Source: Myxococcales bacterium
GTDB taxonomy: Bacteria > Myxococcota > B64-G9
NCBI GenBank assembly: GCA_012798435.1
Contig: JAAZNF010000043.1
Span: 1-64,000, forward strand
Direction of reading: 5' to 3'
Length of the DNA: 64,000 nt
Numbering within the stretch: position 1 is the first letter of the stretch; the number at the start of each line of letters is the position of its first letter. Under the pieces are notes generated by a model, which worked only from the letters and a program-made list of their open reading frames with translations, was not told the origin of the DNA and made no database searches. Shown here piece by piece: positions 16,464-30,402 of this stretch. Both the position numbers and the translations under genes were made by a program.

Positions 16464-17642
16464 CTAGATCTCGATGTCCGAGGCCCGTGCCTCGCCGGAC
16501 GAGCCCGCCGGCGAGGTGGCCGTCGACAGGCGAACCGTGAAGGTGGAGCCGACCCCTGGCTGGCTCTCGACCTGCACCGCACCACCGTACAGGTGGGCCA
16601 GGCGCTTCACGATGGACAGGCCCAGGCCCGAGCCCAGGATGTTGCGGGTGTGCTCGTTCTTGATCCGGGAGAACTCCAGAAACAAGCGTCCGGTGTCCTC
16701 CGGCGCGATGCCGATGCCGCTGTCCGCCACTTGCAAGACGGCCTGCCCCGCCTCGGCGCGGCAGCGTACCTCGACCGTCCCGCCGGCCTTGTTGTACTTC
16801 ACCGCGTTGGAAACCAGGTTGTTGAGGATGATCTCGATCTCGCCGGGGTCCGCCTGGAGAACCACCGGCGCCTCGGCCACCAACGAGATCGACACCCCCT
16901 TGTCCCGCGCCGCCGGCTGCGCCGTCTCGATGGCGCGTCGAGCGACCTCGACGGCGTCCACCGGCTTCAGCGTACGCTGCTTCTGTCCCGACTCGATGCG
17001 GGTAAGATCGAGAAGATCGAAGATGAGCTTGCTCATGCCCTCCAGGCGAACCAACGAGCGCTCCACCATGCGCCGGGTGCTCTCGGGATCGGATGCCAAC
17101 TTTTCGTCCTGCAGGATGCGCAGATACCCCTCCACCGCCGCCAGCGGGGCCTTCAGCTCGTGCGCCAGCACCGAGAGGAACTGGAAGCGGATCTTCTTGC
17201 GCTCCTCGGCCAGGTTGCGCGCCTGACGCTGCAGGATGTGGTGGCGCACCGCCTTGCGCACCACCGTTTTCATCTCCTCCGGCGTGAAGGGCTTGGCCAG
17301 GAAGTCGTAGGCCCCGAGCTTGGTGGCCTGGACCGCCGTCTCCAGCGAGGCGTAGGCGGTGATCATCACCACCAGGATGTCGAGCCGCTTTTCCAGGATG
17401 CGGTTGAGCACGTCGATGCCGGTGATGCCGCCGAGCTTGTAGTCCAGGAGCATGAGCTCGGGCGGGGCGGCAGCGATCTTGGCCAGCGCGTCCTCACCCG
17501 ATTCGCTCAGCTCGACCCGGAAGGACACCTCGGCATCCGCCTCCTCCACCCGGCACACGAAGTTGCGCAACGCCCTCTCCACCGCCAGGCGCATGCCCTC
17601 CTCGTCGTCCACCACCAGGATTCGCAACGCTTCCTTGGCCAT
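16464..17642 (-). CDS. Soluble hybrid: N-terminal receiver plus histidine kinase
   Basis: Receiver ILVVDDEEGMRLAVE...LMLLDYKLGG...FLAKPF; H-box LSVLAHELKAPLAAVEGYL; N/G boxes NNLVSNAVKYN, DSGIGIAPED, GSGLGLSIVKRL; no TM segment seen. Confidence 0.9.
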   Translation of the reverse strand: MAKEALRILVVDDEEGMRLAVERALRNFVCRVEEADAEVSFRVELSESGEDALAKIAAAPPELMLLDYKLGGITGIDVLNRILEKRLDILVVMITAYASLETAVQATKLGAYDFLAKPFTPEEMKTVVRKAVRHHILQRQARNLAEERKKIRFQFLSVLAHELKAPLAAVEGYLRILQDEKLASDPESTRRMVERSLVRLEGMSKLIFDLLDLTRIESGQKQRTLKPVDAVEVARRAIETAQPAARDKGVSISLVAEAPVVLQADPGEIEIILNNLVSNAVKYNKAGGTVEVRCRAEAGQAVLQVADSGIGIAPEDTGRLFLEFSRIKNEHTRNILGSGLGLSIVKRLAHLYGGAVQVESQPGVGSTFTVRLSTATSPAGSSGEARASDIEI

Positions 17643-17654
17643 GCACTCTCGCCT

Positions 17655-19658
17655 CTACCCCGCCTTGAGTTTCCGGGGCAGCGACACCCGGAAGACCGTG
17701 CCGGTTGGCCCCGTCGCCGGATCGCAGTTGGAGCTGAGCGAGATGTCTCCCCGGTGCATCTTGACGATCCCGTACACCACCGCCAGACCCAGGCCGGTGC
17801 CTTTGCCCATCTGCTTGGTGGTGAAGAACGGCTCGAAGATCTTTTTGAAGTTCTCCCGGGGGATGCCAATCCCGGTGTCCTCCACCTCCAACACCACCCA
17901 GTTCTCGTCCGCGCGGGTGCGGACCGTGAGCGTCCCCCCCTGGGGCATGGCGTCGTAGGCGTTGGTGACCAGGTTCGTCAGAATCTGGACCACCTGGTCG
18001 CGGTCGATCTCCGCCGTGGTGTCCGGGGAGTCCTGCTGCACCACGACCTGCACGCCCTGGGGGGGCGGCAGCGCCTGCATGGAGCGGGCCACCAGCGCTC
18101 CCAGCTCCGTGGCCTCGTGCGTCACCTTGTTCTGCCGCGCGAAGTCGAGCAAGCCCGAGACGATCTTCTTGCAGCGCGAGGCCTGCTCCGCGATCATCTC
18201 CAGGTCTTTTCGCACCGGTGAGTCGGGCGGGCATTCCTCCAGCAGAAGGTGGGCGTACATGAGCACGATGCCCAGCGGGTTGTTCACCTCGTGGGCCACG
18301 CCCGCGGCCAGCTGCCCCATGGAGGCCAGGCGCTCGGAGTGCATCAACGACTCCTGGGTCGAAGCCAGCTGCTGGTTGGAGAGGGACAGCTCGCTGACGG
18401 TGGTCTTGAGCTCCTCGACGATGAAGGGCAGGCACATCTCGCTCTCGGCCAGTCCGTGGTAGATGGCGATGGCGTGCTCGCGGCAGGTGAGGTAGCCGCA
18501 GCTGCCGCAGTTCAGCTCGTCGGCCTTGGACTTCTTCCCCATGCGCGCCAGGATGCGGGCGACTTCTTCCTCGGGCGGGGCCTGGATGCGCCGATCGCGC
18601 GGAGCGAAGCCGCGGGACAGGTTCAGGTTGGCGAGCCGGTTGGTGGTGCGCTGCCAGGTCTCCTCGTCGAAGCTGCCCATGCGAAACCGCACGTAGCGCG
18701 ACACCTGCGAGCGCCGCTTGAACAACGTGTCCTTGCTGGTAAGGGCCGGACCGGCGATGCAGCCGTGGCAGGCCAGCATCTCGACCAGGTTGGCCTCCAG
18801 CGCGCCCACGGCCAGCTCACCCACCGCGCAGGTGAAGTTGGTCTTGCCCTCGGTGGCCACCACCTCTCCGGTCATCAGATCCTCGGCGATGTTGGCGGCC
18901 TGCAGCATCCCGCCGGTGATGGGGAACAGCGCCCCCTGCCCGGGATGCGGCGGATCGAAGTCGCTGGGCTCGACAGTTTCGGGCGTGACCCCCCGAGCGG
19001 CAAACATCTGGCGCAGCTCCTCGAAGGTGATGGCCACGTCGACGTTGCCCGGCACCCGGCTGTCCGAGGCCTCCACCTTCTTGGCGATGCAGGGCCCGAT
19101 GAACACGACCTTCAGATCGGCCCCCTCCAGGGCGCGCAGGGCCCGGGCCATGGCCACCATGGGGGACACGATGGGCGCGAGCCGCGGGGTGAGCTCCGGC
19201 TGGTATCGCTCCACGAACCCCACCACCGCCGGGCAGGTGGTGGCCACGTACTGCGCGCCCTTCTTGCGTCCGGCCATGAGCTGACGGTAGCGCTCGGCGA
19301 CCAGATCTGCGCCGAAGGCCACCTCGCACACGAGCGAAAACCCCAGGGCGCGGACCATCCCCACCAACACCCGGAAGTCCACCTCGTGGAGGAACTCCAC
19401 CGGGAAGCTCGGCGCCAGGATGGCGGCTGCCCGCTGGCCACTGCGCAGGATCTCCTCGACGGGTTCCAGGGTCGAGATGACCTCCTTGGCCCGTTGGGAG
19501 CACACGCGGTAGCAGCTGCCGCAGCCGATGCAGCGCTCGGGGATGACCTCGGCCTGGCTCTTGGACATGCGGATGGCCTTGGCCGGGCACTTGAGCACGC
19601 AGGTGAAGCACAATCGGCAGCGGTTCTTGATGGTCTTGACGAAGCAGGTTTCGTCCAT
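17655..19658 (-). CDS. Ferredoxin/[FeFe]-hydrogenase H-cluster-like/4Fe-4S/histidine kinase fusion (HydS-like sensor)
   Basis: Two ferredoxin motifs (CRLCFTCVLKCP; CIGCGSCYRVC); hydrogenase-like TTCPAVVGFVE, PCIAKKVEA, EMLACHGCIAGPA; CGSCGYLTCREHAIAIYHGLAESEMC; H-box GVAHEVNNPLG and ATPase GKGTGLGLAVVYGI. RBS GGGGAGGA before ATG. Confidence 0.9.
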   Translation of the reverse strand: MDETCFVKTIKNRCRLCFTCVLKCPAKAIRMSKSQAEVIPERCIGCGSCYRVCSQRAKEVISTLEPVEEILRSGQRAAAILAPSFPVEFLHEVDFRVLVGMVRALGFSLVCEVAFGADLVAERYRQLMAGRKKGAQYVATTCPAVVGFVERYQPELTPRLAPIVSPMVAMARALRALEGADLKVVFIGPCIAKKVEASDSRVPGNVDVAITFEELRQMFAARGVTPETVEPSDFDPPHPGQGALFPITGGMLQAANIAEDLMTGEVVATEGKTNFTCAVGELAVGALEANLVEMLACHGCIAGPALTSKDTLFKRRSQVSRYVRFRMGSFDEETWQRTTNRLANLNLSRGFAPRDRRIQAPPEEEVARILARMGKKSKADELNCGSCGYLTCREHAIAIYHGLAESEMCLPFIVEELKTTVSELSLSNQQLASTQESLMHSERLASMGQLAAGVAHEVNNPLGIVLMYAHLLLEECPPDSPVRKDLEMIAEQASRCKKIVSGLLDFARQNKVTHEATELGALVARSMQALPPPQGVQVVVQQDSPDTTAEIDRDQVVQILTNLVTNAYDAMPQGGTLTVRTRADENWVVLEVEDTGIGIPRENFKKIFEPFFTTKQMGKGTGLGLAVVYGIVKMHRGDISLSSNCDPATGPTGTVFRVSLPRKLKAG

Positions 19659-19704
19659 GGGTTCCTCCCCGGCGCTCGCACCGGGGGACGGGGCCACCTA
19701 CCGC

Positions 19705-20094
19705 TCAACGGTCCAGCAGGCGATGCACCTCGGCGCGCAGTTGCTCCGGCCGCACCGGCTTGTTGAGGAAGGTGTCCGCCTTGATCCAGGAGCGCACCTC
19801 GGGCGACGGCGAGGAGAAGTTCAGCCCGGTGGCCGCGGCGACGGCGGTCAGGATGATCACCGGGGTCTCGGGGTACAGGCGCTTGACGTGGTGGCACAGC
19901 ACGAACCCCGAGTCCTTGTTCTCCATCATCAGGTCGAAGATGGCCAGGTCCGGGATGGCGGTGAGCAGCGCCTCCTCCGCCTCCTCCTGGCTGTGCGCGC
20001 CCAACACCTGGTAGCCCTCGCCCTTCAGGAGCAGCGACACCTGCTCCAGGATGTCGGGGTCGTCGTCCGCGATCAGGATCTTCTTCTGGTTCAT
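19705..20094 (-). CDS. Single-domain response regulator in the hydrogenase operon
   Basis: ILIADDDPDILEQVSLLL...LAIFDLMMENKDSGFVLC...FLNKPVRPEQL; no output domain. Confidence 0.88.
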   Translation of the reverse strand: MNQKKILIADDDPDILEQVSLLLKGEGYQVLGAHSQEEAEEALLTAIPDLAIFDLMMENKDSGFVLCHHVKRLYPETPVIILTAVAAATGLNFSSPSPEVRSWIKADTFLNKPVRPEQLRAEVHRLLDR

Positions 20095-20104
20095 GGCCGT
20101 ATCC

Positions 20105-21832
20105 TTATAGCAGAACGTTGCGTTCGTGGTAATGGGTGTGCAGCAGGTGGTGGCTGCGCTCGCCCAACGGTTTGCCCAGGAATTCGGCGTACAGGCGCTG
20201 CACCATCTTGTTCTTGTGGCTGACCCGCAGCGTCTCGTCACGGTCGATCTGGTAAAGGGCGTTCATGCGGGCCCGGACCGCCTCCATGTCGGTGCCCAGA
20301 GGCTGGCCGCCGCCGTTGATGCAACCGCCGGGGCAGGTCATGACCTCGATGAAGGCCAGATCCTTGCGGCCGGCGCGGACCTCGTCGAGCAGCTTGCGGG
20401 CGTTCCCCAGCGAGCTGGCGACCGCCGCGCACAGCTCGAGATCGCCGATCTTGACCCGCGCCTCCTTGATGCCCTTGAGGCCGCGCACCTCCTGGATCTT
20501 GAGCTCTGAAAGCTCAGAGCCGGTAATGAGGAAGTAGGCGGAACGGATGGCGGCCTCCATCACGCCGCCGCTGGCGCCGAACAGCTTGCCGGCGCTGGAG
20601 CGCTCGCCGAACGGGGTGTCCGCGCCCTCGGGTTCCAGGGCCGCCGGGTCCACTCCGCACAGGCGGAACAGGTCGGCCAGCTCCCGCGTGGTGAGCACGT
20701 AGTCCACGTCGGGAACCATGTTCTGGTTCATCTCCGGACGCTGCGCCTCGAACTTCTTGGCGGTGCAAGGCATGATGGAGACCGAGACGATGCTGCGCGG
20801 GTCCCGGCCCTCGCGCTCGGCGAAGAAGCTCTTCACCAGGGCGCCCATCATCTGCTGAGGGCTCTTGCAGGTGGACAGGTTGGGGATGAAGTCGGGGTAG
20901 AACTGCTCCACGAACTTGATCCAGCCCGGCGAGCAGGAGGTGAGCATGGGCAGCACCCCGCCCTGCTGGATGCGTTGCACCAGCTCGGAGCCTTCCTCCA
21001 TGATGGTGAGGTCGGCGGTGAACGAGGTGTCGAACACCCGGTCGAAGCCGACGCGGCGCAGCGCCGCCACCATCTTGCCGTCGAAGTCCACCCCGGGCTT
21101 CATGCCGAACTCCTCGGCGATGGTCACCGACACCGCCGGGGCGTGCTGGCACACCACCATCTTGTCCGGATCGTTGAGGGCGGCCAGCACCTCGTCCACC
21201 GAGCGCTGCTCGTGCAGGGCGCCGGTGGGACACACGTTGACGCACTGCCCGCAGTTGATGCACGAGGAGACGTTGAGGCCCTTGTTCAGTGCGGTTCCGA
21301 TGAAGGCGCGGCTGCCACGCTCGATGAAGTCGATGGCGGCCACGCCCTGGATCTCCTCGCACACGCGCACGCACTTGCCGCACAGGATGCACTTGTCGGG
21401 TTCGCGTGCGATGGCAGGGCCGGAGACGTCCCGCTCTCGATGCACCGCCTTGCCGCGGAACACGCGCTGGGTGACGCCGTGCTCGCGGGCCAGCCGCTGC
21501 AAGTCGCACTTTCCGTTGCGGATGCAGTACAGGCAGTCGTCCGGGTGGCTGGAGAGCAGGAGCTCGACGATGGTGCGGCGCGCCTGGATCACCTCCGGCG
21601 AGCGGGTGTTCACCTTCATGCCTTCGCTCACCGGGAACGAGCACGACGGCACCAAGCCCGGCGCGCCCTCCACCTCCACCACGCACATGCGGCAGGCGCC
21701 GGAGGGCAGCAGATCCTCCATGTAACACAGGGTAGGGATGGGGATCCCCGCCCGCCGGCAGGCGGTCAGGATGGTGTCGCCCTTGCGCGCCTGGACCGCC
21801 TGGCCGTTGACCTGGATATTGACGTTGCTCAT
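20105..21832 (-). CDS. hydA: [FeFe]-hydrogenase catalytic subunit, group A-like
   Basis: N-terminal 2Fe-2S, His-Cys cluster, two 4Fe-4S motifs (CILCGKCVRVCEE; CINCGQCVNVCP); canonical H-cluster motifs TSCSPGW, MPCTAKKFE, EVMTCPGGCINGGGQP; C-terminal SHKNKMVQRLYAEFLGKPLGERSHHLLHTHY. Confidence 0.96.
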   Translation of the reverse strand: MSNVNIQVNGQAVQARKGDTILTACRRAGIPIPTLCYMEDLLPSGACRMCVVEVEGAPGLVPSCSFPVSEGMKVNTRSPEVIQARRTIVELLLSSHPDDCLYCIRNGKCDLQRLAREHGVTQRVFRGKAVHRERDVSGPAIAREPDKCILCGKCVRVCEEIQGVAAIDFIERGSRAFIGTALNKGLNVSSCINCGQCVNVCPTGALHEQRSVDEVLAALNDPDKMVVCQHAPAVSVTIAEEFGMKPGVDFDGKMVAALRRVGFDRVFDTSFTADLTIMEEGSELVQRIQQGGVLPMLTSCSPGWIKFVEQFYPDFIPNLSTCKSPQQMMGALVKSFFAEREGRDPRSIVSVSIMPCTAKKFEAQRPEMNQNMVPDVDYVLTTRELADLFRLCGVDPAALEPEGADTPFGERSSAGKLFGASGGVMEAAIRSAYFLITGSELSELKIQEVRGLKGIKEARVKIGDLELCAAVASSLGNARKLLDEVRAGRKDLAFIEVMTCPGGCINGGGQPLGTDMEAVRARMNALYQIDRDETLRVSHKNKMVQRLYAEFLGKPLGERSHHLLHTHYHERNVLL

Positions 21833-21856: not shown

Positions 21857-24800
21857 TCAGGCCGGCTGGGTGAAGTCGATGTCGCAGCGCAGGCAGCGGC
21901 GCGCCTCGCACAGCGCGTCCCGCTCTTGCACCGCCAGCTCGACCTCGCGGAAGTTGCCCTTGCGGGACTTCGCCGGCAAGTGGATGGCCGACAGCCGGGC
22001 CGCCGCCTCGCCTTCCTCCTCGGCGGAGGCCAGCGGCTCGATGTACACGCTGGGCAGGCGCACCCGCGGGATGACCTTGAGCTGCTTGCCGCTCAAGTAA
22101 CGGTGGATCATCTCGGCGGCGTTCTTGCCCGCAGCGATGGCCTGGATGACCGTGTTCGGGCCAGTCACCACGTCGCCGCCGGCGAAGACGCCCGGCTGCC
22201 CGGCGGAGCACGTCTCCTCGTTGATCACCAGGGTGCCGTTCTTGGAGACGGTGAGGCCCTGACAGACGCTGGTGTCTGGATCTTCGCTGATGGCCACGAT
22301 CAGGGTATCCAGCGGCACCTCGTACTCGCTGCCCGGCACCGGCACCGGCCGCTGGCGCCCGCTCTTGTCGCGCTCGCCCAGCTTGTTCTTGACGAAGCGC
22401 ACGCCGCTGAGCTTCCCAGCGCGGGACAACACCTGCACCGGCGCCACCAGCGTCAGGAGCTCGATGCCCTCCTCCAGCGCCGCCTCGATCTCCTCGGCGT
22501 GCGCCGGCATCTCGTCGCGGGTGCGGCGGTAGAAGATGGTCACGCTCTCGACGCCCTTCTGGCGCACCGCCACCCGCGCCGCGTCGATGGCGGAGTTGCC
22601 GCCGCCGATGACCCCTACCTTGCCGCGGGCCTTGGCCTCGCCGCGCAGGTTGAAGGCCTTCAAGAACTCGATCCCCGGCAGCACCCCCTCCGCCTCCTCT
22701 CCCGGGACGCCGAGCTTCTTGGAGCGGTGCGAGCCCAGCGAGAGGTAGATGGCGCGGAAGCCCTGCTGGCGCAGGCCTTCCAGATCGAAGTCGCGCCCCA
22801 GCACCGTGTTGCAGCGCAGCTCGATGTTCTCGTTGAGCAGGGCGTTGATCTCCTTCTGCAACACGTCGCGGGGCAGCCGGTATTCGGGGATGCCGCACAC
22901 CAGCATGCCGCCGGGCTTGCACTCCTTCTCGAAGATCGTGACCCGGTACCCCTGGAGCGAGAGCTGGTGGGCGGCCGTCAGGCCCGCCGGCCCGGCGCCG
23001 ATCACCGCCACCCGCGGCGCGTCCGGAGCGGCGCGCTTCACCACGAACTTGTAGGCCGAGGGGTCCACCCGGTCCACCGTGAAGCGTTTCAAGGTGCGGA
23101 TGGCGATGGGGTCGCCGCCGGTGGTGCCGGCGCGGCAGCTCTTCTCGCAGGGATGGTTGCACACCCGGGCGCAGGCCGAGGGGAAGGGATTGGCCTGGCG
23201 GATGACCCGGTAGGCCTCCTCGTACTCGCCGCGCCCGATGTGGGCCACGTAGCGCCACACCTCGGTGCCCACCGGACAGCCGTTCTGGCAGGGGGCGCCG
23301 GTGAGCTCCTTGCAGCCCCCGGCCGGGCAGCGCCGCTCGTAGATGTGGGCCTCGTACTCGTCGCGGAACCAGCGCAGCGTGGACAGCACCGGGTTGGGCG
23401 CCGTCTTGCCCAGCCCGCACAGCGAGGTCTTGCGGATCACCTCGGCCAGCTCCTGGAGGTACATCACGCCCTGGAAGCGCTCCAGCGCGTCGTTGTCTTC
23501 CTCCTTGCGGCGCGGGCGGGTGATGGCCTGCAGGATCTCCAACATGCGCCGGGTGCCGACGCGGCAGGGGATGCACTTGCCGCAAGACTCCTTCTGGATG
23601 AACTCCATGAAGAACTTGGCCAGGTCCACCATGCAGGTGTTCTCGTCCATCACTACCAGGCCGCCCGAGCCCACGATGGCGCCCAGGGACTGGAGCGACT
23701 CGTAGTCGATGGAGACGTCCAGTTGGCTGGCGGGGATGCAGCCGCCGGAGGGCCCGCCCATCTGGGCGGCCTTGAACTTCTTGCCGCCGGCCACGCCGCC
23801 GCCGATGCCCTCCACGATCTCCCGCAGGGTGGTGCCGAAGGCCACCTCCACCAGGCCGATGTTGTTCACCGCTCCCACCAGCGAGAACACCTTGGTGCCC
23901 TTGGACTTCTCGCTGCCGATGCCGGCGAACCAGGCCGCGCCCTTGTTGATGATGTGCGGCACGTTGCACCAGGTCTCGACGTTGTTGATGTTCGAGGGCT
24001 TGCCGAACAGGCCCGACTGGGCGGGGAACGGCGGCCGCGGGCGGGGCATGCCGCGCTTGCCCTCGATGCTGTTCATGAGGGCCGTCTCCTCGCCACACAC
24101 GAAGGCGCCCGCGCCGACCTTGACCGTCATGTCCAGGTTGAAGCCGGAGCCCAGGATGTCCTGGCCGAGCAGGCCGCAAGCCTTGGCCTGCGCGATGGCC
24201 TTGTGGAGCTGTTGGATGGCCAGCGGGTATTCGGCGCGGCAATAGATGTAGGCCTTGCTGGCGCCGATGGCATAGGCGCCGATGATCATGCCCTCGATCA
24301 TCAGGTGGGGGTTGCCCTCGATCTCGGAGCGGTTCATGTAGGCGCCGGGATCGCCCTCGTCGGCGTTGCAGATGATGTACTTGGTGTCGCCCGGCTGCTG
24401 CCGGCACATCTCCCACTTGCGGCCCGTGGAGAAGCCGGCACCGCCGCGGCCGCGCAGCCCCGAGGCCTTGACCTCGGCGATCACCTCCTCGGGGGTGAGC
24501 CGGGTCAGGGTCTTGGCCAGGGCGGAATATCCGCCGATGCGAATGTAGTCGTCGATGGAGGTGGGATCCAGGTGGCCGTTCTCCGACAGGATGATGCGCA
24601 TCTGCTTCTTGTAGAAGGGCACGTCCTGTTCGCGCAGGATGCGCTCGCCGCTGGCGGGATCTACGTACTGCAGGCGCTCCACCACGCCGTGCTCCACGCA
24701 GGTCACCCGCACCAGCTCGTCGGCGTCTTCGGCCTTCACCCGCACGTAGAAGATGTTCTCGGGACGGACCACCACGATGGGGCCGCGCTCGCAGAAGCCG

Positions 24801-25006
24801 TGGCAACCCGTGACCTTCACCTCGATCTTGTCCTGCAAGGCGTATTTCTTCACCGCCGCCTGGAGCGCCTCGACCAGCGAGACGGAGCCCTGGGCGTTGC
24901 AGCCCGTGCCGCCGCACACGCAGATGCGGACCTTGGAGGGATCGTGGGCGGCGATCAAACGCTCGCGGTAGGTGGTGAGCTGTTTTTCGTTTTCGAAGCG
25001 CATCAT
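21857..25006 (-). CDS. Fusion of a NuoF/HydB-like NADH-binding flavoprotein with a GltD/NfnB-like FAD/NAD(P) oxidoreductase
   Basis: N-terminal thioredoxin-like 2Fe-2S (CVCGGTGCNAQGS...CHGFCERGP), NuoF (GLRGRGGAGFSTGRKWE, NADEGDPGAYMNR, ESCGKCIPCRVGT), then GltD-like CPAGGCKELTGAPCQNGCPVG, VAVIGAGPAGLTAAHQLSLQGY, VGVIGGGNSAIDAARVA. One continuous 1049-aa frame. Confidence 0.93.
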   Translation of the reverse strand: MMRFENEKQLTTYRERLIAAHDPSKVRICVCGGTGCNAQGSVSLVEALQAAVKKYALQDKIEVKVTGCHGFCERGPIVVVRPENIFYVRVKAEDADELVRVTCVEHGVVERLQYVDPASGERILREQDVPFYKKQMRIILSENGHLDPTSIDDYIRIGGYSALAKTLTRLTPEEVIAEVKASGLRGRGGAGFSTGRKWEMCRQQPGDTKYIICNADEGDPGAYMNRSEIEGNPHLMIEGMIIGAYAIGASKAYIYCRAEYPLAIQQLHKAIAQAKACGLLGQDILGSGFNLDMTVKVGAGAFVCGEETALMNSIEGKRGMPRPRPPFPAQSGLFGKPSNINNVETWCNVPHIINKGAAWFAGIGSEKSKGTKVFSLVGAVNNIGLVEVAFGTTLREIVEGIGGGVAGGKKFKAAQMGGPSGGCIPASQLDVSIDYESLQSLGAIVGSGGLVVMDENTCMVDLAKFFMEFIQKESCGKCIPCRVGTRRMLEILQAITRPRRKEEDNDALERFQGVMYLQELAEVIRKTSLCGLGKTAPNPVLSTLRWFRDEYEAHIYERRCPAGGCKELTGAPCQNGCPVGTEVWRYVAHIGRGEYEEAYRVIRQANPFPSACARVCNHPCEKSCRAGTTGGDPIAIRTLKRFTVDRVDPSAYKFVVKRAAPDAPRVAVIGAGPAGLTAAHQLSLQGYRVTIFEKECKPGGMLVCGIPEYRLPRDVLQKEINALLNENIELRCNTVLGRDFDLEGLRQQGFRAIYLSLGSHRSKKLGVPGEEAEGVLPGIEFLKAFNLRGEAKARGKVGVIGGGNSAIDAARVAVRQKGVESVTIFYRRTRDEMPAHAEEIEAALEEGIELLTLVAPVQVLSRAGKLSGVRFVKNKLGERDKSGRQRPVPVPGSEYEVPLDTLIVAISEDPDTSVCQGLTVSKNGTLVINEETCSAGQPGVFAGGDVVTGPNTVIQAIAAGKNAAEMIHRYLSGKQLKVIPRVRLPSVYIEPLASAEEEGEAAARLSAIHLPAKSRKGNFREVELAVQERDALCEARRCLRCDIDFTQPA

Positions 25007-25491
25007 GACGCCATCTCCTTGGGCTGCTTTTCTTGCGCGGCCCGGCGGCACTCGTCGAGGACCTTGGCGATCTTGGCCTGGGTCACCTTGGGATAGAAGG
25101 TGCCGTTGACAGTGATGGTCGGCGACAGGGCGCAGGCCCCCAGGCACGCCACCACCTCCAGGCTGAACAGGCCGTCCCGGGTGGTCTGGCCGGGTTCGAT
25201 GTGCAGCGCCTTGATGAGGGTCTCGAGCGTCTTGGCCGAGCCCTTCACATGGCAGGCCGTGCCGCGGCACACCATGATGTGGAACTTGCCGCGGGGGCTG
25301 AAGCGGAACATGTTGTAGAAGGTGGCCACCCCGTAGATCTTGCTGGCCGGGAGCTTCAGCCGGCGGCCGATCTCGGCGATGGCCTGCGGCGAGATGTAAC
25401 CCTGGTCTTCCTGCACCTCTTGCAGGATGGGGATCAAGGCGTCCCTTCCCGCGCCGGGGTGCCCCTGGAGGATGGCGTCAATTCCTTTCAT
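25003..25491 (-). CDS. NuoE/HydC-like 2Fe-2S subunit
   Basis: YGVATFYNMFRFSPRGKFHIMVCRGTACHVKG, VVACLGACALSPTITVNG; stop overlaps the start of the NuoF-GltD fusion (ATGA). Confidence 0.93.
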   Translation of the reverse strand: MKGIDAILQGHPGAGRDALIPILQEVQEDQGYISPQAIAEIGRRLKLPASKIYGVATFYNMFRFSPRGKFHIMVCRGTACHVKGSAKTLETLIKALHIEPGQTTRDGLFSLEVVACLGACALSPTITVNGTFYPKVTQAKIAKVLDECRRAAQEKQPKEMAS

Positions 25492-26134
25492 GTTCGTCGG
25501 TCCCTTTCTCCCTTGAGTGTTTCTGTTGGGCGGCGAAGTAGGCCACTTTCTCGAGCGACATGGTCACGTCGAGGTTCTCGACGAAGATCCCGGCCGGCAG
25601 GCGGAGCTTGGTCGGGGCGAAGTTCAGGATCCCCCGCACCCCACCAGCCACCAGTTCGTCGGCGACGTCCTGAGCGGCGGCCGCGGGCACCGTGATGATG
25701 CCGATGGAGACGCGCTGCTCGCGCAGGATCTCGGAGAGGCGCGCCATCGGATAGACCTTGCACCCGTGCAGGATGCGGTCGAACTTCTCCGGGTTCGTGT
25801 CGAAACCGGCGACGATTTCGAGGCGGGGCAGCCTGCCGGGGAAGAACGAGAGCAGCGCCCGGCCGAGGTTCCCGATGCCGACCAGCACCGCTCGCTGGCC
25901 CTCTTTCGACTCGATGAGATCGATGGTCTTCTTGAGAAGCTCTTCGATGTCGTAACCACGCTTGGGGCTCCCGGTAAAACCGATCTTCATGAGGTCGCGG
26001 CGCACCGAGGCGGAACTGGCATGGATGTGCTTGGCGATCTCGTGGGAGAAGACGAAGTGCTCTTTACGTGCCAGGCGCTCTTCGAGGAACCTTCGCATCA
26101 GGATGATCCTGGCTATGGTCGCATCTGAAAGCAT
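25478..26134 (-). CDS. rex: Redox-sensing transcriptional repressor Rex
   Basis: N-terminal winged helix (SSASVRRDLMKIGFTGSPKRGYDIEEL), Rossmann VLVGIGNLGRALLSF, FDTNPEKF, NFAPTKLRLP. Confidence 0.94.
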   Translation of the reverse strand: MLSDATIARIILMRRFLEERLARKEHFVFSHEIAKHIHASSASVRRDLMKIGFTGSPKRGYDIEELLKKTIDLIESKEGQRAVLVGIGNLGRALLSFFPGRLPRLEIVAGFDTNPEKFDRILHGCKVYPMARLSEILREQRVSIGIITVPAAAAQDVADELVAGGVRGILNFAPTKLRLPAGIFVENLDVTMSLEKVAYFAAQQKHSREKGTDEHERN

Positions 26135-26267: not shown

Positions 26268-27347
26268 TTATTTTATTTTTTTGCTTCCAGGACCTGTGCC
26301 TATTTTTCTTCCAAGAAAGTTTATCCTGGTTTCCAAGGTGGTTCTCAGGAATTCTGCAGTCTCGTGAAGACAGGCCTTGTTGGGATAGATCTCGTAAAGT
26401 GAACGGTAACGTTCGGGTGTCAGGTTCGGCATCACCACGTTCGCCCCGCGAAGAAGCCCGAGATCCCGGCCTTCCTCGTTCGCCAGCGTCGCCAGCGCGG
26501 TCGTGCTCGGAATGTTTGCGAACGGACAGACCAGACGCGTCAGGGACAGAACGCGGTACGTCATGTCGGCGTCGTTCGGGACTTGCTCGGAATCCGGCAG
26601 CAGGAAGTGCCCGGGTCGGTACCCCAGCGGAGTGTGCGGGTGCGGCAGGTACGGCCCCACCCCGATCATGTCGAGATCCAGCTTCCGAAAGGCGAGGATG
26701 TCGTCGGCAAGGCTCTGGTAGCTTTGACCGGGGATTCCGATCATCACCCCGCTGCCCACCTCGTACCCGAGCGCGCGCAGCGTGCCGAGCAAGGCGAAGC
26801 GATCGGGCCCCTCCGGGTCTGCCGCGGGATGGATGCGCCGGTAGAGCGCGGCGTCGGAGGTCTCGAAACGCAGCAGGTACCGGTCGGCCCCCGCCTCGCG
26901 CCAGCGCGCGAGGTCATCGCGGCTGCGCTCGCCCAGGCTCAAGGTGACGGCCAATCCCGTCCTGCGTTTGATCTCGGACACGAGCCCGGCGACGTAGGGC
27001 CCGGTGAGCTGCGGATCCTCTCCAGACTGGAGCACCAGCGTGCCGAAACCCGCCGCCCTCGCCTCCTCCGCGGCGGCCAGGATCTCGTCCTGCGTCATCC
27101 GGTAGCGTCGCAAGGCACGGTTGGGCGCGCGGATGCCGCAGTAGGCGCAGCGGCGCCGGCAGTGGTTGGAGATCTCGACGAGCCCCCGCAGGTGGACCTC
27201 GTCGCCGACGGTACGGCGGCGAACCGTGTCCGCGGCAATGAAGAGCCGCTCCAGCTCTGCCGGCTCGGTCGTGCGCAGCCAGGACAGGATGGCCTCGCGC
27301 TCGAGAGACGAAAAGCGATCGAGGCCGCGGTACAGGTCAGCCATCAT
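26268..27347 (-). CDS. hydE: [FeFe]-hydrogenase maturase HydE (radical SAM)
   Basis: Radical SAM CRRRCAYCGI; LQSGEDPQLT, GSGVMIGIPGQSYQSLADDI, GPYLPHPHTPLG; next to hydF and hydG. Confidence 0.93.
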   Translation of the reverse strand: MMADLYRGLDRFSSLEREAILSWLRTTEPAELERLFIAADTVRRRTVGDEVHLRGLVEISNHCRRRCAYCGIRAPNRALRRYRMTQDEILAAAEEARAAGFGTLVLQSGEDPQLTGPYVAGLVSEIKRRTGLAVTLSLGERSRDDLARWREAGADRYLLRFETSDAALYRRIHPAADPEGPDRFALLGTLRALGYEVGSGVMIGIPGQSYQSLADDILAFRKLDLDMIGVGPYLPHPHTPLGYRPGHFLLPDSEQVPNDADMTYRVLSLTRLVCPFANIPSTTALATLANEEGRDLGLLRGANVVMPNLTPERYRSLYEIYPNKACLHETAEFLRTTLETRINFLGRKIGTGPGSKKIK

Positions 27348-28581
27348 GGCGGGTGCGGCCCGAAAGTTTTCGGAAGAGTTCGAGCGCCGCAGGGAACGGC
27401 GACAGCGCCCGCTCGAAGATCCCCAGGCTGTAGGCGATGGCCAGGCCATAGTTGGTGATCGGCACCCGGGCTCGCTTGCAGCGCTCGATGCGGCTCAGCA
27501 CCTCCCGGCGGTTGAGCATGCAGGCGCCACAGTGGATCACCAGCCGGTAGCGGGACACGTCGTCGGGGAAGTCGCGGCCCTGCACGGTGGTGAAGTCGAG
27601 CGCCCCGCCCACGACCTGGGCAAGCCAGCGCGGGATCTTCACTCGCCCGATGTCGTCACCGATGGGGTGGTGGGTGCAGGCCTCCGCCACCAGCACCGGG
27701 TCGCCGGGCCGCAGCCGAGAAACGGCGAGGGTTCCCTCCACCTGGGTCAGCAGATCTCCACGGAACCGCGAGAACAATATGGAAAACGACGTCAGCGGCA
27801 CCTCGGGCGGCGTGTCCGCGGCCACCTTCGAGAAGGCCTGCGAGTCGGTGACCACCAGCTTCGGCCGCCCGCACAGCATCGAGAGAGCGCCGCGTAGCTG
27901 TTGGTCCTTGACCACCAGCGCGCAGGCGTCGCCGTCCAGAAGATCGCGGATGGCCTGCACCTGCGGCAGTATGATCCGTCCCCGCGGCGCCTCCTTGTCG
28001 ATGGGCACGACCAACACCGCGCACCCGTCGGGCCCGACCAGGTCCGAGAGGATCACCGGTTGCTCGATGAAGTCGGCCGGGGCGATGGCGAGCAGCCGCT
28101 CTCGCAGAGCGTCGATCCCCTCGCCGCGATCGGCCGCGGTCTCGACCCAGGGCACCTCTCGCTCCCGCAGCTGCAGCAGGACCGTCTCCGCCGGCCGGCC
28201 CCGGTCGCGCTTGTTGAAGGCCACCAGCGCCGGGACCTTGCGGGCCAGGAACTCCCCGAGCAGCCGCTCCTCGAACTCGCCGAACTCGCCCGCGGCGGCC
28301 ACCAGCACCGCCAACTCGGTGCGCTCGATGGCAGCTCGGGACTTCTGGATGCGGGCCTCTCCCAGCGCCCCCACGTCGTCGAGGCCGGCGGTGTCGATGA
28401 ACAGCACCGGCCCCAGCGGCAGGAGCTCCATGGGCTTCTCCACCGGGTCGGTGGTGGTGCCGGCCACCGGCGAGACGATGGACACCTGCTGGCGGGTGAT
28501 GGCGTTGAGCAAGCTGGACTTGCCCACGTTCCGGCGCCCGAAGATCCCGATGTGCAACCGCATGCTCTTGGGGGCGCGCAC
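27337..28581 (-). CDS. hydF: [FeFe]-hydrogenase maturation GTPase HydF
   Basis: GTPase GRRNVGKSSLLNAI, DTAGLDD, NKRD; C-terminal CTHHPIGDDIGRVKIPRWL and HCGACMLNRREVLSRI. Confidence 0.95.
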   Translation of the reverse strand: MRAPKSMRLHIGIFGRRNVGKSSLLNAITRQQVSIVSPVAGTTTDPVEKPMELLPLGPVLFIDTAGLDDVGALGEARIQKSRAAIERTELAVLVAAAGEFGEFEERLLGEFLARKVPALVAFNKRDRGRPAETVLLQLREREVPWVETAADRGEGIDALRERLLAIAPADFIEQPVILSDLVGPDGCAVLVVPIDKEAPRGRIILPQVQAIRDLLDGDACALVVKDQQLRGALSMLCGRPKLVVTDSQAFSKVAADTPPEVPLTSFSILFSRFRGDLLTQVEGTLAVSRLRPGDPVLVAEACTHHPIGDDIGRVKIPRWLAQVVGGALDFTTVQGRDFPDDVSRYRLVIHCGACMLNRREVLSRIERCKRARVPITNYGLAIAYSLGIFERALSPFPAALELFRKLSGRTRHDG

Positions 28582-28616: not shown

Positions 28617-30014
28617 CTATACATAGACGTCCCGCTCGCCGGCGCGTACCCGCTCGAGCATCTTCTGGGCGGCCTGGGCCACAGGTTTCGCCATGTCGCC
28701 CAGCGCCCGCTCGATCAGCAGCTCCCCCACCCGCCGCGTCTCGGGCGAGGCGTAGTCGAGCAGGTACTCCTGGAAGGTGGACAACGCGTTCGGATCGCAG
28801 TGGGCCTTGATGGCCCCGGGTTTCGCGAGATCCATGAAGTCCTGCCCGGTGCGGCCCAGCCGATAGCAGGCGGTGCAGAAAGACGGGATGTAGCCCAGGC
28901 CGGCCACGTCGCGGATGACCTCGTCGAGCGGGCGGTGGTCTCCCAGCGAGAACTGGGCGGCCTGCTCGATCTCCTGCTCCGAGTAGCCGCCCGGGTTGGT
29001 GCGCGAGCCGGCCGAGATCTGGGACACCCCCAGCGCGAAGGTCTCCGAGCGCATCTTGGCCGACTCGCGGGTGGACAGGATGATGCCGGTGTACGGCACG
29101 GCCAGGCGCAGGATGGCCACCAGTTTGCGGAACTCGACGTCCGAGACCGGCTTGGGCGGGTGGGAGGCCATGTCCGAGCCCACCGCCGGCTCCAGCCGGG
29201 GCACGCTGATGGTGTGCGGCCCCACGCCGAAGCGGCGCTCGAGGTGCCGGGCGTGCTGCATGAGCGCCAGGATCTCGAAGCGCCAGTCGAACAGGCCGAA
29301 CAACACCCCGATGCCCACGTCGTCGATGCCGGCCTGCATGGCCCGGTCCATGGCCCCGAGGCGCCAGTCGAAGTCGCGCTTCTTGCCGCTAAGGTGCACC
29401 GCCAGGTAGGTCGGCCGGTGGTAGGTCTCCTGGAAGAGCTGGTAGGTGCCGATGCCGGCCTGCTTCAGGCGCCGGAACTCCTCGATCTCCAGCGGGGCCA
29501 CGTTCACGTTGAGGCGGCGGATCTCGCCCCGGCCCTTCTTGACCGCGTACACCGTCTCGATGGAGCGCAGCACGTAGTCGAATCCCTCGCGCGGGTACGA
29601 CTCGCCGGCTACCAGCAGCACCCGCTTCTGGCCCTGGTCCACCAGGATCTCCACCTCGCGGCGGATGAGGTCCTGAGTCAGCGAGCGGCGCTGCACCTTC
29701 CGGTTCCGCGCGCGGAAGGCGCAGTACAGACACTCGTTGGCACACAGGTTGGAGATGTACAGCGGGGCGAACAACACCAGCCGCCGCCCGTAGATGCGCT
29801 CCTTGACCTCCCGGGCGGTGCGGAACAATTCGCCGAGCAGCTCCGGATCGCTGACCTCGGCCAGCACCGCCACCTCGGGCAACGACAGCCCCTTGGCCTC
29901 GGCGGCGCGGGTCAGGATCTCCCGCACCCGCCCGCTCCCGGCCCCGGCCGCCCGGGACAACGCCTGCTCGATCTCGGCCTCGTCGATGAAGTTTTCGAGC
30001 GAAGCTTCAGCCAT
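28617..30014 (-). CDS. hydG: [FeFe]-hydrogenase maturase HydG (radical SAM, ThiH-like)
   Basis: YISNLCANECLYCAFRARNRKVQRR, C-terminal CTACYRLGRTGQDFM; RBS GGGAGG before ATG 30014. Confidence 0.95.
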   Translation of the reverse strand: MAEASLENFIDEAEIEQALSRAAGAGSGRVREILTRAAEAKGLSLPEVAVLAEVSDPELLGELFRTAREVKERIYGRRLVLFAPLYISNLCANECLYCAFRARNRKVQRRSLTQDLIRREVEILVDQGQKRVLLVAGESYPREGFDYVLRSIETVYAVKKGRGEIRRLNVNVAPLEIEEFRRLKQAGIGTYQLFQETYHRPTYLAVHLSGKKRDFDWRLGAMDRAMQAGIDDVGIGVLFGLFDWRFEILALMQHARHLERRFGVGPHTISVPRLEPAVGSDMASHPPKPVSDVEFRKLVAILRLAVPYTGIILSTRESAKMRSETFALGVSQISAGSRTNPGGYSEQEIEQAAQFSLGDHRPLDEVIRDVAGLGYIPSFCTACYRLGRTGQDFMDLAKPGAIKAHCDPNALSTFQEYLLDYASPETRRVGELLIERALGDMAKPVAQAAQKMLERVRAGERDVYV

Positions 30015-30402
30015 GCCGGCCTCCCTTTTCGCCCGATGCGCCGGCACCCAGCGCCTGCAAGATGGCGGCCGGGTCGAGCGGCTTCTGGAACACCGCGCTG
30101 ATGCCGAGCTGCCGCGCGTCGGCGTATTGCTCCAGCCCGGCGCCCACCGAGCTGAGCAAAAAGATGGGGATCTCCGCGCGCGCCGAGCGCATCTTCCGCA
30201 CCAATGTAAGCCCCGTGTCCGCCGACTCCATCATGAGATCGCAGATGACGAAGTCGGGCCGAACCCGCTCGAATTTTTCGAGCGCCTCCGCGCCCGACGA
30301 GGCTCGCTCGACTCGAAACCCGCGGGACGAGAGCAGTGCCGCAAGCGAGTTCAGGATGTCCTCGTCGTCATCGATGCACAGGACGAGCTTTTTTGCCGCC
30401 AT
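30007..30402 (-). CDS. Single-domain response regulator at head of the maturase operon
   Basis: LVLCIDDDEDILNSLAALL...FVICDLMMESADTGLTL...VFQKPLDPAAIL; overlaps hydG start; RBS GGAG. Confidence 0.88.
   Translation of the reverse strand: MAAKKLVLCIDDDEDILNSLAALLSSRGFRVERASSGAEALEKFERVRPDFVICDLMMESADTGLTLVRKMRSARAEIPIFLLSSVGAGLEQYADARQLGISAVFQKPLDPAAILQALGAGASGEKGGRHG

Follow-up and report, generated by a model that had tools for sequence, protein, structure and literature searches.

A histidine kinase fused to a sensory-type [FeFe]-hydrogenase-like domain with a conserved CxxC cysteine pair, encoded beside HydABC in a Myxococcales bacterium

The window analysed here is a stretch of 64,000 nucleotides of contig JAAZNF010000043.1 (assembly GCA_012798435.1, Myxococcales bacterium). 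It contains a gene row in the order Rex-HydC-HydB-HydA-REC-sensor kinase-REC/HisKA/HATPase, closely preceded on that strand by the genes of the maturases HydE, HydF and HydG. The features and the evidence for them are as follows.

16464..17642, minus strand: hybrid REC-HisKA-HATPase protein (Pfam; conserved neighbour)
17655..19658, minus strand: histidine-kinase-fused sensory [FeFe]-hydrogenase-like protein, CxxC variant, 667 aa (ORF and translation, Pfam/NCBIfam domains)
17655..18331, minus strand: kinase core of this protein, HisKA (His456) and HATPase_c (Pfam, aa 447-509 and 552-663)
18432..18509, minus strand: C-terminal cluster motif Cx2Cx4Cx16C, PF04060 (Pfam and motif reading)
18747..18770, minus strand: shortened motif 3, CHGCIAGP, i.e. 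CxxC; the residue equivalent to G501 of CpI is missing (alignment to CpI)
18747..19430, minus strand: H-domain Fe_hyd_lg_C (PF02906), aa 77-304, with Cys142, Cys190, Cys297 and Cys300 (Pfam, alignment, AF2 model, PDB fold matches)
19500..19619, minus strand: two 4Fe-4S ferredoxin motifs, CxxCxxCxxxC twice (Pfam Fer4_10 and motif reading; conserved among homologues)
19705..20094, minus strand: single-domain response regulator, REC (Pfam; conserved neighbour)
20105..21832, minus strand: HydA, NADH-dependent [FeFe]-hydrogenase of group A6 (NCBIfam NF040763, 836 bits, over the cut-off)
21857..25006, minus strand: HydB (NuoF-like) fused to a GltD-like FAD/NAD(P) domain (Pfam; start inferred from the sequence)
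25003..25491, minus strand: HydC, NuoE-like 2Fe-2S protein (Pfam)
25478..26134, minus strand: Rex redox-sensing repressor (NCBIfam)
26268..27449, minus strand: HydE maturase (TIGR03956, 309 bits)
27337..28581, minus strand: HydF maturase (TIGR03918, 535 bits)
28617..30047, minus strand: HydG maturase (TIGR03955, 546 bits)

The coordinates 17655-19658 given for the sensor-kinase gene in a preliminary description of the locus are right, and the minus strand, absent there, is added here; the gene starts with ATG at 19658 (alternative GTG at 19697) and its stop lies at 17655. Pfam and motif reading bear out the combination in one protein of ferredoxin motifs (CRLCFTCVLKC at aa 14 and CIGCGSCYRVC at aa 43), an H-cluster-like domain, a CxxCGYxTC region and a HisKA/HATPase module. 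The H-domain matches Fe_hyd_lg_C with E=5.9e-45 and carries the motifs TTCPAVV (aa 140), PCIAKKVEA (aa 189) and CHGCIAGP (aa 297). The Cx2Cx4Cx16C motif, defined in PMC8163306 and found in TamHydS and TmHydS, starts at aa 384 (CGSCGYLTC...C) within a Pfam FeS match spanning aa 382-411. In the kinase core, the H-box HEVNNPLG (aa 456) with the phospho-acceptor His, the N and G boxes and the ATPase motifs DTGIGI and GTGLGL are present. The whole source genome (5.05 Mb, 97% complete) encodes only two PF02906 proteins, namely, this sensor kinase and the HydA of the same operon, whose motifs read TSCSPGW, MPCTAKK and TCPGGC.

Structure prediction, proposed in the preliminary description for the cofactor pocket, yielded a confident [FeFe]-hydrogenase-like AF2 fold for aa 5-425 (26-row CxxC alignment; mean pLDDT 92.9, pTM 0.91). 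For a CxxxC control, the model was of poor quality (pLDDT 74.6). The best 50 PDB fold matches (Foldseek) are all [FeFe]-hydrogenases, with CbA5H, TmHydABC and DdH at the top (TM about 0.7). At the end of the model, a helix leads out of the C-terminal cluster domain in the direction of HisKA; neither a PAS nor a HAMP domain intervenes.

An important question is whether the H-domain site is degenerate, as it had been called, or a variant in its own right. In the alignment to CpI, equivalents of C300, C355, C499 and C503 are all present; Thr stands at position 299, the place of the proton-relay Cys, Gly replaces Met353 and Leu replaces Met497. The same Gly is known from TmHydS and the same Leu from TamHydS (PMC8163306), and each exchange occurs in 76 of the 77 aligned CxxC proteins. 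The reported change of TSCSPGW to TTCPAVV is indeed there; what did not stand is its peculiarity, as it is the norm of groups C and D. All sensory group C/D relatives compared lack Cys299 and keep C300, the residue at 299 being mainly S/P/T/A and also D/N, with no proton-relay Cys; only 17% of sensory hydrogenases have Cys at this position (PMC10055695). TTCPAVV was also considered as a sign of an inactive site and was rejected, since it is common to H-cluster-binding proteins of these groups. PCxAKKxEA is retained, as stated previously, and its PCxAK Lys (CpI 358) is found in 76 of 77 CxxC proteins. At the positions where CpI contacts the 2Fe unit, the pocket has the same residues as in the H-cluster-binding sensory sisters. 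By alignment, the shortened cysteine pair is thus the single real peculiarity of the site, and the TTCPAVV change is ordinary for groups C and D.

The difference between the CxxC of the third motif and the CxxxC (TCPGGC) of the same-operon HydA holds, and its fixed spacing in 77/77 proteins excludes chance. The comparison with group C/D sensors suggested earlier places 77 CxxC proteins against 34 CxxxC sensory relatives: the G501 position is deleted in 77/77 of the former and 0/34 of the latter, i.e. only in the CxxC clade. Decay or sequencing error as the source of CxxC was rejected because the same spacing is found in 77 proteins from independent genomes. The term 'degenerate' is accordingly misleading for a protein group in which the H-domain cysteines are invariant, the kinase His nearly so and the PCxAK Lys almost always kept; as far as the sequences tell, the CxxC site is a conserved variant, without decay.

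The relatives come from an H-domain scan of 84,980 species genomes and comprise 80 loci, 44 of them CxxC (the nearest relatives, two partial) and 36 CxxxC. Of the six scan patterns, one (EMLACHGC) is biased toward the CxxC form, and the A1 profile likewise derives from CxxC proteins; even so, the phylum profile surveys also returned CxxxC relatives, with a clean score separation among the matches whose loci were read. CxxC proteins occur in at least six phyla, including Acidobacteriota, Planctomycetota, Caldisericota, Bacteroidota, Ignavibacteriota and Latescibacterota. Whole-genome profile surveys found carriers in five other genomes of the window's own phylum (195 searched), in about 20 of 392 genomes in the phylum of G007 and in about 26 of 396 in that of G014. 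All 45 sequences of the scan set (window included) have the same spacing, and the four H-domain cysteines are invariant in them; the Fer4 and Cx2Cx4Cx16C cysteines are invariant wherever the region is present, except for one Fer4 Cys in one sequence, and the kinase His is found in 41/45 (three gaps, one other residue). A maximum-likelihood tree from which the motif columns were left out puts the 61 CxxC rows on one side of one branch (SH-aLRT 89). This branch is sister to the CxxxC sensors and groups with PAS-type sensory proteins apart from the HydA outgroup (support 100). Judged by this tree, the CxxC spacing has a single origin. The Pfam-checked CxxC proteins, with one exception (L038, see below), end in HisKA/HATPase, whereas their Pfam-checked CxxxC relatives end in PAS.

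The gene neighborhood was compared between 29 CxxxC loci and 31 CxxC loci, the latter with flanks longer than 2.5 kb in either direction. HydA, HydB and a small REC protein each accompany 28/31 CxxC sensors and a REC-kinase hybrid 26/31, versus 2/29 for HydA and 0/29 for the REC pair at CxxxC loci. Most CxxC loci, across phyla, preserve the order HydC-HydB-HydA-sensor kinase-REC-REC/HK, which is also kept in a single-contig Bacteroidota-group genome (L175) and several others. In four Bacteroidota-group loci (L178, L183, L184 and L185), the CxxC sensor and REC proteins have a complete HydABC set on either side, the two sets being of different type.

Which known class does the protein belong to? 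In place of motif 1 of group A (TSCxPxW, in which Cys occupies CpI 299), the protein has TTCPAVV; motif 2 (PCxxKK) is present as PCIAKKVEA; and in place of motif 3 (ExMxCxxGC, CxxxC), the sequence is EMLACHGC (CxxC). The score against the curated group A model TIGR02512 is 93.6 bits, versus a cut-off of 405.95. Since motifs 1 and 3 are missing, the name H-cluster [FeFe]-hydrogenase should not be applied to the protein. It does have the sequence features of the sensory histidine-kinase-linked class (HydDB C1/C3, BfuT): PF02906 with N-terminal 2x4Fe-4S, Cx2Cx4Cx16C, a fused kinase and placement in group C/D. Architecture, operon and conservation support the earlier suggestion that a modified Fe-S site may let this sensor kinase respond to H2 or redox, and the protein would work like a sensory hydrogenase kinase.

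Such proteins are not new as a kind. HydDB recognizes HK-linked group C hydrogenases (PMC5037454), and a kinase-fused group C3 protein, 'BfuT', has been described beside BfuABC in Hydrogenedentota sub-type V and Caldithrix abyssi (PMC11406978). BfuT resembles the window protein as an H-domain-histidine kinase fusion directly beside a group A HydABC and as a proposed H2 sensor, but the main text of that study reports no CxxC; the study hardly found H-cluster motifs in its group C1 proteins. BfuT may itself be a member of the clade of the window protein. TmHydS (Thermotoga maritima, group C, M2f) and the PAS-type relatives (L043-L080) share the two Fer4 motifs, the missing C299, Gly for M353 and Cx2Cx4Cx16C; they differ in having PAS for HisKA/HATPase, and the relatives are CxxxC in 34/34 aligned and adjoin HydABC in only 2/29. 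TamHydS (Thermoanaerobacter mathranii, group D, M2e) shares Fer4, the H-domain, Cx2Cx4Cx16C and Leu for M497, and its gene, like that of the window sensor, is near a bifurcating HydABC and a kinase gene; however, it has no fused kinase and binds a normal H-cluster (PMC8163306). The group A6 HydA of the operon has the H-domain fold and cluster cysteines in common with the sensor but differs by CxxxC, Met353/Met497 and catalysis. ZraS/AtoS-type sensor kinases, of which ZraS gives the best PDB match, agree in the HisKA/HATPase core and have a periplasmic or PAS input instead of an iron-sulfur H-domain. In the searchable open text, no description of CxxC or a shortened motif in sensory hydrogenases was found. 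Thus, the kind is already known, and the conserved CxxC clade is, within that literature, apparently undescribed.

The reading that we prefer, and to which we give an even chance, is that of a cytoplasmic sensor histidine kinase with a sensory-type [FeFe]-hydrogenase input, the 2Fe site in an altered geometry, tuning HydABC; it is probably a gauge for the neighboring hydrogenase rather than an H2-making enzyme. The four invariant H-domain cysteines would hold the [4Fe-4S] cube, and the 2Fe unit would most likely still be taken up via the second Cys of the CxxC, HydEFG being available in the same cell. Its altered geometry would make the site slow or non-catalytic. The H-domain cluster would respond to H2 or to a redox state that HydABC sets. 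H2 binding, or an attached redox change, could then alter the H-domain and the C-terminal cluster domain, and the latter, through the helix to the HisKA dimer, might set autophosphorylation. In TamHydS, H2 does not reduce the C-terminal cluster but does change the secondary structure (PMC13104023), which makes a simple redox relay to the kinase doubtful and favors a conformational route over an electron relay. The phosphate would pass to the neighboring REC protein and to the REC-HisKA-HATPase hybrid. Together with the NADH-sensing Rex, this output may adjust the HydABC operon. The operon in the window encodes no DNA-binding output protein other than Rex. In one genome (L173, G544), the gene after a CxxC sensor reads as an NtrC-like sigma-54 activator, and this adjacency makes a transcriptional output plausible.

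How much weight can be placed on the shortened pair? The preliminary description held that catalytic H-clusters need the CxxxC pair; this is a generalization from the enzymes characterized so far, and our literature search found neither a published test of a spacing one residue shorter nor a characterized H-cluster protein with CxxC. The missing residue has its place between the two Cys which, in known enzymes, bind the cube and form the bridge to the 2Fe unit, and this position of the deletion counts against 2Fe uptake. The main rival reading is a sensor whose H-domain has lost the 2Fe unit and in which, besides the accessory clusters, there is only a [4Fe-4S] cube, the redox state of which, or its damage by O2 or NO, reports ferredoxin/NADH pressure to the kinase, so that the protein would resemble an Fe-S redox kinase, not a hydrogenase. 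We regard this as plausible, if rather less than evenly probable. CxxC loops commonly bind 4Fe-4S cubes; the deletion at the bridging-Cys motif is fixed in 77/77 proteins and, having arisen once, suggests that the function changed a single time; and HydG and HydF are absent from some apparently complete genomes that carry the sensor. The intact 2Fe-contact pocket argues in the opposite direction, as does the location of the CxxC gene, which is nearly always beside HydA, with HydEFG usually in the genome. Eukaryotic Nar1/NARFL keeps PCxxKK and CxxxC and has no 2Fe unit; therefore, pocket and motif residues are not diagnostic either way. The broader proposal that a cross-phylum clade re-engineered its H-cluster site by a fixed deletion and senses redox or H2 beside the ancestral-type enzyme with a different cofactor (4Fe-4S only or a differently linked 2Fe) is tentative, in our estimate a little short of even.

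The distribution of maturases was also considered. HydF scores over the cut-off in 33/44 CxxC genomes, and a few others have fragments of it or a divergent copy; HydG was found in 30/36 and group A HydA in 35/36, and HydG in 18/28 genomes of a second Bacteroidota-group set. Because the near-constant HydA needs the same maturases, their presence or absence does not discriminate 2Fe uptake by the CxxC domain. Three apparently complete genomes (L178, G787, a single contig of 3.74 Mb; L179, G957; and L180, G795) combine a canonical HydA, HydABC operon(s) and a CxxC sensor with missing maturases: genome searches found HydE and no match for HydF and HydG in G787, and a divergent HydF beside the operon and neither HydE nor HydG in G957 and G795. 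The absence of HydG has been reported for clostridial acetogens (PMC9431212). The genome with the sigma-54 activator (G544) has two CxxC sensors, HydG and HydE, and a genome search for group A HydA found none.

The two remaining explanations fare worse. That of an ordinary catalytic hydrogenase with a kinase, in which the shorter motif is structurally neutral and H2 is turned over at normal rates, can appeal to the four retained ligand cysteines, but it is very improbable given the missing proton-relay Cys at CpI 299, the score far under the group A cut-off and the slowness of the characterized sensory relatives (PMC8163306, PMC10055695); the window protein probably does not turn over H2. Least credible of all is a decaying, non-functional H-domain with the kinase driven by another input, for which the shortened motif alone speaks, as every H-domain cluster Cys is invariant at 41-61% identity to the window protein, across phyla, with synteny preserved.

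The protein bears on the problem of how [FeFe]-hydrogenase-type sensors pass on the H2 signal. Neither TmHydS nor TamHydS carries a kinase on its own polypeptide; in the protein described here, the H-domain is fused straight to the kinase, which makes the signal output assayable in a single chain. The one-residue deletion is a natural probe of how far the loop that binds the H-cluster tolerates change, and it would set hydrogen-binding and cube-only forms of the same fold side by side. Should the 2Fe unit have been lost, many genes annotated as 'group C hydrogenase' in genomes of Planctomycetota, Bacteroidota and Acidobacteriota would have to be left out of tallies of H2-active enzymes.

Several minor observations concern the neighboring genes and more distant relatives. 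In the TSCSPGW of the window HydA, Cys aligns at CpI 299 and Ser at CpI 300, a cluster ligand in CpI; A. woodii HydA1 (structure 7q4v) carries the same motif, which is thus a natural variant. The window HydB (21857-25006, minus strand) joins NuoF to a GltD-like Fer4_20/Pyr_redox_2 module, which suggests a second FAD/NAD(P) site; fusions of similar type adjoin some CxxC sensors, not all, and are included among the published BfuB types (PMC11406978). Among the 36 genomes with CxxxC PAS-type sensors (L043-L080), 14, mainly Spirochaetota, have no HydF over the cut-off, one of them with a fragment (G045, G047, G048, G054-G056, G060, G061, G065, G066, G070, G072, G074 and G077); these sensors may lack the H-cluster, or the MAGs may be incomplete. 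The exception L038 (7995-9842, Marinifilum fragile) is CxxC with PAS in place of the kinase and has PCVASK for PCxAKK, the PCxAK Lys being lost. The gene downstream reads as a SpoIIE-type phosphatase, and at this locus the CxxC form may have drifted further, toward a phosphatase-linked arrangement.
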